Source: Sphingomonadales bacterium | GTDB lineage: Bacteria; Pseudomonadota; Alphaproteobacteria; Sphingomonadales; Sphingomonadaceae | Reading direction: 5' to 3' | Assembly: GCA_027489295.1 (NCBI GenBank) | Contig: JAIYAA010000310.1 | Coordinates: 1-39,811, forward strand | DNA length: 39,811 bases | In this document: positions 205-39,741 of the stretch, in pieces | Position numbering within the stretch: position 1 is the stretch's first letter | Layout: each line of letters begins with the position of its first letter | The notes under the pieces: generated by a model | Databases searched by the model: none | Seen by the model: the letters and a program-made list of their open reading frames with translations, nothing else | Told to the model about the DNA's origin: nothing | Program-made: the position numbers and the translations under genes

Positions 205-280
205 GGGGCTGTAGCTCAGATGGGAGAGCGCTGCAATCGCACTGCAGAGGTCAGGGGTTCGATTCCCCTCAGCTCCACCA
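205..280 (+). tRNA. tRNA-Ala (anticodon CGC), prophage attachment target
   Basis: A 76-nt cloverleaf: acceptor stem GGGGCTG pairs with CAGCTCC (one G-U), D arm TAGCTC...GAGC, anticodon stem CTGCA/TGCAG around loop ATCGCAC giving anticodon CGC (reads GCG, Ala), T arm AGGGG-TTCGATT-CCCCT, and an encoded CCA end. The gene stays intact after integration because the phage supplies the 3' part. A short hairpin (TAGCT-N5-AGCTA, 288-302) followed by CCTTTT lies just downstream and may act as its terminator. Confidence 0.97.
232..280 (+). repeat. attL: attL core: 49-bp direct repeat shared with attR
   Basis: Identical to 39693-39741. It begins in the 5' anticodon stem (TGCAATCGC...) and ends at CCA. 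Tyrosine integrases that use tRNA genes typically cross over in the anticodon or T-loop region, which fits this start point. Confidence 0.95.
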
Positions 281-11443: not shown

Positions 11444-11691
11444 GAACCGCACAGGTTACGTTGCATTCAAGACAACCAACTTCGCACCCCCGATCCCGCT
11501 GATCCAACTTCACTACTCAAAACCCCCGTTGTGCGCCTTACAATGTTCCCCTTGTGTTCCCATTAGGCGAATGTGAACGGTGTAGGAAATAGCAAAAATT
11601 CGCTGGTAAATGCAGCATTTGGAACCAGCGCCAGCATTTCAGTTGCGTACCGACGCCTAGGTCGGCATGGAGCGCGCATTCAGGGGGCTGG
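11444..11691. other. 248-bp regulatory gap between repressor and membrane protein
   Basis: No convincing gene. It contains a candidate LexA box (11545-11559) and the left arm of a 12-bp inverted repeat (11649-11660). Base composition is visibly lower in G+C than the surroundings. Confidence 0.6.
11545..11559 (+). promoter_or_regulatory. candidate alphaproteobacterial LexA box (GTTC-N7-GTTC)
   Basis: GTTCCCCTTGTGTTC fits the direct-repeat SOS motif known for alphaproteobacterial LexA. It lies 133 bp upstream of the membrane-protein start and is followed by CATTAGGC, similar to the CTATTAGGCC after the second box at 38672. An 8-base pattern is expected about once by chance in a window of this size, so location carries most of the weight. 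Confidence 0.55.
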
Positions 11692-11743
11692 ATGCAATAC
11701 GAAGCAAGTACCGCCGAATGGCGTAAGTCGACTAGGCGTCGGT
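11649..11743. repeat. 12-bp inverted repeat around the start of the membrane-protein gene
   Basis: ACCGACGCCTAG (11649-11660) and CTAGGCGTCGGT (11732-11743) are perfect inverted copies separated by 71 bp. They enclose the ribosome site and the ATG at 11692. In RNA they could pair and sequester the start, or they may be protein sites. Confidence 0.6.
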
Positions 11744-12222
11744 GGGGAATGTACCTTTGGGCAGGGGGGCTTGTGGCGCTGGTCGCTGCAGGCGGATTGA
11801 GCTTGCACGCAATGGGTCATGATCAGGCGCAGCGCCGGTCTGTTCCTGCGATGATCACCCTAAATCGCTCTGGCGAGCACTCGCTATCGGCACATGTTCT
11901 GTTCAACGCACGGTTGGTGGATGCGGACGTCTATGGTTCTATCGCTGGCAAGGTAGCGATCGTTGCCGAGTCTGTGGCGAGCCGAGATGATATTCGCCCA
12001 AACGATACCGTCCGCGTGGCGATCGAGGATCGCGCCGGGAAGTTCTATCACCTCACTTATAAAGCGGCTTCCCTCCTGCGAGTCGCTGCAGAAGACACGC
12101 CGCCTGCAGACGTGCTGCTACTCGCGCAGGAGCAGGCAATCGACGCGCCTAGGGCAGTCAGTGCGGCTCGCGCCTGGGCGGGGGCACAGCCAACTAGCTG
12201 GCTGGATCGTCTTGGCCTGTGA
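11692..12222 (+). CDS. membrane-anchored protein, possible lysogenic-conversion gene
   Basis: 176 residues. A basic N terminus (RKSTRRRW) is followed by one transmembrane helix (residues 20-40, MYLWAGGLVALVAAGGLSLH) and a soluble C-terminal part of about 130 residues. This predicts an inner-membrane anchor with a periplasmic domain. No family is recognised. It stands alone on the plus strand between the repressor and the last tail gene. That is where temperate phages often carry genes expressed in the lysogen, such as exclusion functions. Its base composition is less GC-rich than the structural genes, as for a moron. AGGGGG precedes ATG 11692. ATG 11749, after GGTGGGG, is an alternative start. 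Confidence 0.7.
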   Translation: MQYEASTAEWRKSTRRRWGMYLWAGGLVALVAAGGLSLHAMGHDQAQRRSVPAMITLNRSGEHSLSAHVLFNARLVDADVYGSIAGKVAIVAESVASRDDIRPNDTVRVAIEDRAGKFYHLTYKAASLLRVAAEDTPPADVLLLAQEQAIDAPRAVSAARAWAGAQPTSWLDRLGL

Positions 12223-38339: not shown

Positions 38340-38642
38340 TCAGCTGCGCAAACCGCGGATCAGCCTTTCCCATTGCTCCTCCGAGTTCGGGAAACGGTTT
38401 GGGGCGGTTGGATCTTGCGCACATGGCCGAGCCTTCGCGCTGGCCGGCCGACCGCCGCACTGCAGGCAATAGAGATGATCGCGCAGCATATGCAGCGACG
38501 TCGACCAGCGGTGGCAGCGATACCACCGCTCCAGGCGTCGTGCGTCGATGACGGCGCTGTGCCCGCAGCCACACTGCACCAGCACGTTGAACCCGCGCCG
38601 GGTGATGTCGCCAAGCGTCTCATAGCGATGGTTCGCGCTCAC
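38340..38642 (-). CDS. zinc-knuckle protein, candidate SOS-regulated gene
   Basis: 100 residues from GTG 38642. CGCGHSAVIDARRLERWYRC and later CLQCGGRPASAKARP form two Cys pairs, a small zinc-ribbon type seen in many sphingomonad proteins of unknown role. It may bind nucleic acid. Its start is 29 nt from a LexA box that lies between it and the divergent gene at 38698, so it may be induced by DNA damage. It converges with the dam unit. Confidence 0.75.
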   Translation of the reverse strand: MSANHRYETLGDITRRGFNVLVQCGCGHSAVIDARRLERWYRCHRWSTSLHMLRDHLYCLQCGGRPASAKARPCAQDPTAPNRFPNSEEQWERLIRGLRS

Positions 38643-38671
38643 GGCTTTGCCCCGGCGGCGGCTTGCGAATA

Positions 38672-38686
38672 GAACATAACTAGAAC
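38672..38686 (+). promoter_or_regulatory. candidate LexA box between divergent right-end genes
   Basis: GAACATAACTAGAAC, the reverse form of GTTC-N7-GTTC, embedded in two direct copies of TAGAACA 11 bp apart (38670 and 38681). It lies 11 nt before ATG 38698 and 29 nt before GTG 38642, so LexA bound here could repress either gene or both. Confidence 0.7.
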
Positions 38687-38697
38687 ACTATTAGGCC

Positions 38698-38934
38698 ATG
38701 CGTTCACGAGTCGACAACCCGCACGATCATTCCGCCGGCCGCTGCCGGATTTGCACCGCGAACGATCGCGAGGCGCTGATTGAGGATCTGGCGCGAGCGC
38801 TATGGGACAGCAGGCGCAGCGGCACGCTCGACGACGTCCCGCTCGACCAGGCCGCGGAGCATTGGCAACACGTGTTTCACGAGTTCGCGAGCAGCGCGAT
38901 AGACCTGCTCACCTCCCAGGAACCTCCGCTTTGA
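38698..38934 (+). CDS. 78-residue right-end protein under a LexA box, antirepressor candidate
   Basis: MRSRVDNPHDHSAGRCRICT, then a helical body with EALIEDLARALWDSRRSGTL and EHWQHVFHEFASSAIDLL. No family is recognised. Codon use is normal for this phage. Its position near the right end, next to a LexA box, is that of tum in coliphage 186, which encodes an SOS-induced antirepressor. No similarity to Tum is claimed. Because the phage repressor seems uncleavable, such a function would be needed for induction. The start ATG has no clear ribosome site. Confidence 0.7.
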   Translation: MRSRVDNPHDHSAGRCRICTANDREALIEDLARALWDSRRSGTLDDVPLDQAAEHWQHVFHEFASSAIDLLTSQEPPL

Positions 38935-38935
38935 T

Positions 38936-39000
38936 GTAACAATATTACGCGCAACAATCTTACGCAGCGTGTAATAAAGTTTCATGTAACATTGTTACGT
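38936..39000. repeat. array of 15-bp-spaced GTAACA-N-TGTTAC-like repeats
   Basis: 13-bp near-palindromes: GTAACAATATTAC (38936), GCAACAATCTTAC (38951), a weaker GTAATAAAGTTTC (38971) and GTAACATTGTTAC (38986). Spacings are 15, 20 and 15 bp. The last copy is a perfect palindrome around its central base. They may be iterons for the primase-helicase or a regulator. Confidence 0.72.
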
Positions 39001-39075
39001 CAGTGCGTCATTCTTGTTCGCGACCCAAAAAGAGCGCTTTTCCCCCCACCTCGCCCGCCCCCTTTTCGTGTCCCT

Positions 39076-39623: not shown

Positions 39624-39638
39624 GTTCTCGGCTTGTTC
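39624..39638 (+). promoter_or_regulatory. third GTTC-N7-GTTC motif, in the att arm
   Basis: GTTCTCGGCTTGTTC lies between the right arm repeat and the core. No gene start is close on the plus strand inside the prophage. It could be chance, or LexA could affect recombination here. Confidence 0.35.
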
Positions 39639-39692: not shown

Positions 39693-39741
39693 TGCAATCG
39701 CACTGCAGAGGTCAGGGGTTCGATTCCCCTCAGCTCCACCA
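39693..39741 (+). repeat. attR: attR core: 49-bp copy of the tRNA 3' part
   Basis: Identical to 232-280. It lacks the tRNA 5' half, so it is a remnant and not a functional tRNA. Confidence 0.95.

Follow-up and report, generated by a model that had tools for sequence, protein, structure and literature searches.

Several kinds of small mobile-element gene under SOS control have been described. Coliphage 186 carries tum (p95, LexA) and the Gifsy phages carry dinI-antirepressor-irsA, and the locus described here resembles both in being a small LexA-repressed prophage operon for small proteins, located outside the immunity region. DinI and PsiB act on the host damage response in other systems; such SOS modulators are small mobile-element proteins expected in SOS, as is the protein at the centre of this analysis, the constant member of variable gene cassettes. 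The small LexA-controlled antirepressors of the Gifsy phages, encoded outside the immunity region, are described in PMC3121763 as acting across heteroimmune phages, and the same source describes one antirepressor, in a phage with a cleaved repressor, that is not under LexA. LexA sites of phages are described at antirepressor, co-repressor or lytic genes (PMC9437464), and the alphaproteobacterial LexA motif is stated in PMC8565304 as GTTC-N7-GTTC. Neighbourhoods centred on SRAP (DUF159), as presented in PMC3765255, are SOS-linked like the present locus and combine SRAP with ATP-dependent ligase and small proteins that bind Zn; according to that account, prophages carry SRAP as well. In a sphingomonad, the SOS genes reported in PMC6472365 as induced include SRAP operons.

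The window, i.e. the whole stretch of 39,811 nucleotides that was analysed, contains a region at 38.3-38.9 kb that we judge, with moderate confidence, to be an SOS accessory cassette carried by sphingomonad mobile elements, repressed by LexA in two directions and acting on the host damage response. The protein family that defines the cassette, for which no description was found in the literature searched (nor for the cassette), is now tied to SOS by comparative evidence that is strong.

The prophage and the LexA-type box at its right end

A prophage occupies the window, bounded by identical att repeats of 49 bp, with the attL core at 232-280 (+), within tRNA-Ala, and the attR core at 39693-39741 (+). 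Its left end is formed by the integrase gene (314-1702, - strand; PHROG integrase 2.3e-20, with Phage_integrase at 2.4e-05, just under the Pfam cut-off), the early region and the repressor gene occupy approximately 5-11.4 kb, and the tail, head and terminase genes reach ∼36.7 kb. Beyond them are a gene for a 100-aa CxC/CxxC zinc-knuckle-like protein (38340-38642, - strand) and, divergent from it, a 78-aa gene (38698-38934, + strand) that ends 758 bp from attR. An exact LexA-type direct repeat, GAACATAACTAGAAC (38672-38686, + strand), lies between the two. The initial annotation had placed GAAC-N7-GAAC directly before the 78-aa gene and close to the divergent gene, and both placements are confirmed: the box ends 11 bp from the ATG at 38698 and is 29 bp from the GTG at 38642. 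It is thus a GTTC-N7-GTTC direct repeat in a promoter region, as in the alphaproteobacterial LexA regulon.

On match count alone the box is weak evidence, since 0.72 exact matches are expected per window by chance and 3 were found; at least 3 occur in 2 of 100 shuffled windows. A position weight matrix (PWM) trained on 5 recA and 19 module boxes gives it a score of 19.6, with a Markov-1 expectation of 0.01 per window, and ranks it second in the window. The window and its three closest relatives (L001, L002 and L018) agree at all 15 bases of the box and vary more in the stretch from the box to the zinc-knuckle start. A sigma-70 promoter scan of 38560-39010 found none; read by eye, a -35-like TTGCGA (38663-38668) and a -10-like ACTATT (38687-38692) flank the box. 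ARAGORN predicts a tRNA-Asp at 38654-38747 (- strand), over the box and the gene start, that is probably false, with no Rfam match there at E<=1.

The best-scoring LexA-like site of the window, also an exact GTTC-N7-GTTC, is at 11545-11559 (+ strand; PWM 24.9), and no score as high arose in 200 Markov resamples. It lies ∼100 bp 3′ of the repressor gene and 5′ of a 176-aa ORF (11692-12222, + strand) that has no family match in Pfam or PHROG and, by eye, an N-terminal hydrophobic stretch. The phage record G002 has a weaker site (34915, score 14.5) in a similar place 3′ of its repressor gene. The third exact repeat (39624-39638, - strand; PWM 18.5) is 54 bp before the attR core and, instead of a LexA box, could be a site for an excision factor or in an attP arm. 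In a by-eye comparison, G002 carries two GGTATCGC repeats and then TGTTC-N6-TGTTC beside a partial att core.

A sequence search with the 78-aa protein recovered seven proteins, the query included, and a profile search recovered 146 at E<=0.01, designated the CRICTAND family because their core reads CRICTAND; among the matches listed (120 of the 146), the genus, where named, is Sphingomonas or Novosphingobium. The predicted structure of the 78-aa protein consists of three helices at residues 17-22, 24-40 and 54-73 (pLDDT 82.4, pTM 0.66), with a poorly predicted N-terminus. The protein itself has no Pfam or PHROG match at E<=1. Among 116 family members, at most 4 match any one Pfam family (best E 0.0092), and PHROG matches are weak, the best (1.7e-4) being to phrog_1091, a family with no function that is matched by 7 of the 116; phrog_3096 (tail assembly chaperone) and phrog_686 (HTH) score E above 0.1. 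A fold search of the model against PDB and BFVD gave no significant match, and RyR repeats and lambda Gam, with E above 1, were set aside as fold identities. P0008 has no match at E<=0.01 in 50,697 records of isolated phages. At the DNA level, 38300-39740 matches 22 isolated-phage records, and the matches listed, 20 of the 22, cover only the att/tRNA end.

Conservation of the box and composition of the cassette

DNA of relatives was drawn from viral contigs, genome contigs and genomes, and a CRICTAND-family match was present in 5/298 genomes of a family and 8/396 genomes of an order. The 42 distinct loci compared exclude repeat fetches of one place and loci with identical proteins (repeats were judged by contig name or sequence, e.g. 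L022, L104, L112, L118, L085 and most of L023-L037 and L094-L114), the partial or degenerate matches L086, L089, L092, L093, L129 and L130, and the second tandem copies L126 and L127. No exact box was present in the stretch examined for L086, L089, L092 and L093. Loci >90% identical over the first 180 bases were merged (L007, L019, L021, L087 and L090), giving 37 clusters; L160 and L161 stand outside these.

An exact GTTC-N7-GTTC in either orientation was found within 1,100 bp upstream of the gene in 38 of 42 loci and 33 of 37 clusters. The same tetramer at other spacings (3-6 and 8-12) occurs in 0 to 3 of the 37 clusters, and the 1,100 bp downstream, used as a control, contain an exact box in 4 of 37. 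At a spacing of 7, the other tetramers score 28 (AACA), 18 (CCGC) or 12 and below, and the AACA score is taken to reflect the GTTC repeat itself, seen as TGTTC-N6-TGTTC. The four clusters with no exact box are L091, L115, L120 and L124, and L124 has one with a single mismatch 21 bp upstream. L017 and L020 each have an atypical exact box closest to the gene and a second box further upstream.

A single box of the same type is present at recA in 5/5 sphingomonad genomes, within a 3.8 kb stretch. In all eight other phage records scanned, the module box outscores every other LexA-like site; six of these records contributed a box to the matrix, and G001 and G002 did not; G001 and G011 were covered over 20.0 of 22.3 kb and 60.0 of 60.5 kb, respectively, and the lead in G002 is small (16.7 versus 16.0). 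It is the comparison that makes the site strong, because the box is conserved in relatives and is spacing-specific. The LexA control of the small genes proposed in the initial annotation is strongly supported by this comparison across relatives, and the 78-aa gene very probably sits behind a DNA-damage switch.

The usual layout is the box followed by a short run of small genes with the CRICTAND gene last, and on the other side of the box a divergent gene is often present. The search for partners (E<=1e-3) covered 2 kb upstream and 1.5 kb downstream, with queries taken from some of the same loci so that self-matches are included, and at least one recurrent partner gene was found in 34 of the 37 clusters. 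YozE-like genes are the partner in 16 clusters (9 on the same strand and 7 divergent), genes of a VRFEI type (80-100 aa) in 11, a 59-aa type in 6, zinc-knuckle genes in 6 (4 divergent and 2 on the same strand), HTH genes in 5, HIRAN genes in 3 (divergent), and SRAP and ligase genes in one each. The three partnerless clusters, L115, L120 and L124, are also among those with no exact box. The Pfam cut-off was passed by 4/4 HIRAN genes and the one SRAP gene scanned, and the YozE-like genes scanned score below it. Beside the window box, neither HIRAN nor SRAP was found.

Zinc-knuckle homologues adjoin a LexA box and the CRICTAND family in L001, L002, L018, L011, L019, L021 and L097. In L097 the order is integrase, box, zinc-knuckle gene and CRICTAND gene, i.e. 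the two genes of the window on one strand behind one box, and in L011, L019 and L021 the CRICTAND gene is followed by the zinc-knuckle gene. Partner genes also occur apart from the family: L159 has a zinc-knuckle gene in an SOS-box operon with no CRICTAND gene, and L145 has, likewise with no CRICTAND gene, a YozE-like gene beside a LexA box and a divergent HIRAN gene. From this comparison, the box heads a mix-and-match, often divergent, predicted cassette of YozE-like, HIRAN, SRAP, zinc-knuckle, HTH and other small genes.

Further arrangements were observed in single records. L111, a viral contig, carries genes for an ATP-dependent DNA ligase and a HIRAN protein upstream of the cassette. Genome G033 has six whole or partial CRICTAND matches on six contigs (L083, L087 and L090-L093), some of them degenerate; several are accompanied by a VRFEI-type gene and a box, and several hundred bases are common between copies. 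L122 and L121 contain two tandem CRICTAND-type domains, either fused or as an adjacent pair, 3′ of a LexA box and YozE-like genes and, in L121, an HTH gene.

The family extends to plasmids. Two of the three plasmid records matched were examined (the third is H23), namely Sphingobium yanoikuyae pKN1, typed non-mobilizable, and Novosphingobium resinovorum pHR1a, typed conjugative. Both have an exact box upstream, and no annotated phage genes were found within 4-5 kb on either side in a plasmid gene table that is incomplete. On pHR1a, a divergent YozE-like gene and a gene annotated as SRAP are also close by.

Phage repressor, S24 regulators and alternative functions

The phage repressor (10928-11443, + strand; Pfam HTH_3 7.8e-08, PHROG transcriptional repressor 2.4e-13) has no S24 (PF00717) match at E<=1. 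Its predicted structure, a low-confidence model (pLDDT 68.7, 3 sequences), consists of the HTH and an all-helical C-terminus, and no hidden peptidase domain was seen in it. The earlier description of a repressor that has an HTH and lacks an S24 peptidase therefore holds as far as tested, by Pfam and this model. The window thus combines, as in Tum-type induction, a LexA-type operator on a small gene with a repressor lacking a self-cleavage domain, but this is not true for the CRICTAND family as a whole. Of the 15 viral records that contain the module, 7 have an S24-peptidase gene, and six of the eight without one are <31 kb and possibly fragments. HTH_3 is matched within the frame of five of the seven S24 genes (one of these matches is under the cut-off), and the N-terminal parts of the six compared by eye differ. 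No correlation between partner type and repressor type was seen by eye.

Compared with G002, the window has a CRICTAND gene that is 86% identical and a zinc-knuckle gene that is 93% identical; the head, tail and other late-side genes compared are at 67-90%, but identity falls to 36-38% for the repressor, 29-34% for the Cro-like gene and 49% for the CII-like gene. As the module and late genes have been kept and the repressor, Cro-like and CII-like genes have diverged, the module, judged from this pair, travels with the late block. Within the repressor, 24 of 51 positions are identical in the C-terminal part versus 23 of 64 in the HTH part. The small proteins have no similarity to Tum of phage 186 (BLASTP E 0.14 and 14), and a relation to it was rejected on this basis. 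The step taken in the initial annotation from an uncleavable repressor to an antirepressor is thus not supported: co-occurrence with S24 genes, occurrence on plasmids and the missing co-divergence speak against an antirepressor as the family function, which was rejected on these grounds, and with no Tum likeness either, the Tum interpretation finds no support as the general function of the 78-aa gene.

A link to another regulator is suggested by P0103, a database protein in which an HTH is fused to a CRICTAND domain. The HTH was recognised by its likeness to S24-type genes, Pfam giving no match. Each of five genomes contains a single longer gene matched by this half of P0103, with open frames of 214-333 aa. 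The four of these genes that were fetched (L132, L133, L138 and L139) all encode an S24 domain, in scans that omitted the HTH part or covered it incompletely, and each has an exact LexA box a short distance 5′ of its probable start. They are possibly a second SOS-linked regulator in sphingomonads, and this host S24 regulator is probably itself in the SOS regulon. The HTH genes of the cassette resemble the N-terminal part of the host S24 regulator, without the peptidase, a lead that does not amount to proof that operators are shared. The three HTHs found in operons share 35-43% identity with P0103.

One box lies between divergent small genes in the window, and the same type of box precedes the same family on viral contigs, plasmids and genomes, with exchangeable partners that include DNA-damage families (HIRAN and SRAP) in part of the clusters. 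Because relatives on other phages and on plasmids have the same switch, the cassette appears to belong to a mobile kit for responding to DNA damage, and not to serve as this phage's own induction trigger. In a lysogen, LexA would keep the cassette off, as expected from established SOS biology. After damage, RecA-driven cleavage of LexA would switch it on both ways regardless of the phage repressor, and the small helical CRICTAND protein and its partners would then act on the host damage response, whether at damaged DNA, on RecA or LexA, or on the second S24 regulator. That the CRICTAND protein acts there, and not on the phage repressor, is the least certain step and is weakly inferred. A bolder form, in which mobile elements retune host SOS from inside, independently of their own repressors, through a two-way LexA cassette whose CRICTAND protein teams or fuses with an HTH like that of the S24 regulator, is tentative and somewhat doubtful.

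Other functions would be compatible with parts of this evidence. The CRICTAND domain could be a partner for an S24-type HTH in a transcription regulator that acts on operators of the second SOS regulator of the host and keeps up or changes part of the response after LexA has been cleaved. The P0103 fusion, the HTH gene in the operon of 5/37 clusters and the LexA boxes on all four matching S24 genes fetched point this way, but 32 of the 37 clusters, the window included, have no such HTH gene nearby by the partner search and the operon HTHs are only 35-43% identical to P0103, making this role unlikely. Less probable again is an antirepressor of the Tum or GfoA type, where the CRICTAND or the zinc-knuckle protein, made upon LexA cleavage, would bind the non-S24 repressor and induce the prophage. 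It would fit with the strongly indicated SOS control (33/37 clusters), the repressor with no detectable S24 domain, the better-kept C-terminal part of that repressor (24/51 versus 23/64) and the Gifsy precedent of LexA-controlled antirepressors working across heteroimmune phages (PMC3121763). Against it, the module also occurs on plasmids and alongside an S24 gene in 7 of 15 viral records, a single protein family accompanies S24 genes whose N-terminal parts, where compared, differ by eye, similarity to Tum is lacking, and, as indirect evidence, the comparison of the window with G002 shows no joint divergence of module and repressor.

The small predicted three-helix protein, its position at the end of the prophage and the SOS-type operator would also suit a host-takeover or cell-cycle inhibitor made in SOS to clear the way for lytic growth, likened to Fil or Dhr as annotated in phage 186 or, by analogy, to division inhibitors of the SidA type, which are SOS-made. 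Plasmids, on which the genes also occur, would gain little from stopping their host, and some clusters include the damage-response partners HIRAN and SRAP, so a role of this kind is very unlikely. Finally, the box could be a chance match and the genes lie outside the SOS regulon; with 0.72 matches expected per window a single site would allow this, but the spacing-specific occurrence in 33 of 37 clusters and a box that does not vary between the window and L001, L002 and L018 leave it hardly any probability. An accessory cassette directed at the host damage response is the reading retained here.

Comparison with described SOS-controlled systems

The cassette differs from the 186 tum and Gifsy operons in being two-way, in its other partner genes and in its occurrence both with and without S24 genes and also on plasmids. 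In the case of 186 the difference extends to the proteins, those of the window having no sequence similarity to Tum (the comparison covered Tum only). The induction of sphingomonad prophages with non-S24 repressors becomes directly testable, because the window contains two more LexA-like sites, one of them just 3′ of the repressor gene.

In SRAP-centred neighbourhoods SRAP is the central gene, whereas the present cassette has the CRICTAND protein as its constant member and seldom includes SRAP; the word YozE is absent from the main text of PMC3765255 on those neighbourhoods. RyR-repeat-like proteins and small helical actinophage proteins show likeness in fold only, a helical hairpin, with a Foldseek probability of up to 1.00 (BFVD). 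Compared with DinI and PsiB, the 78-aa protein is predicted to be all-helical and has no sequence match to a described family in Pfam or PHROG at E<=1. Were the cassette to modulate the host SOS response, phages and plasmids of sphingomonads would both be carrying a counterpart of DinI and PsiB.
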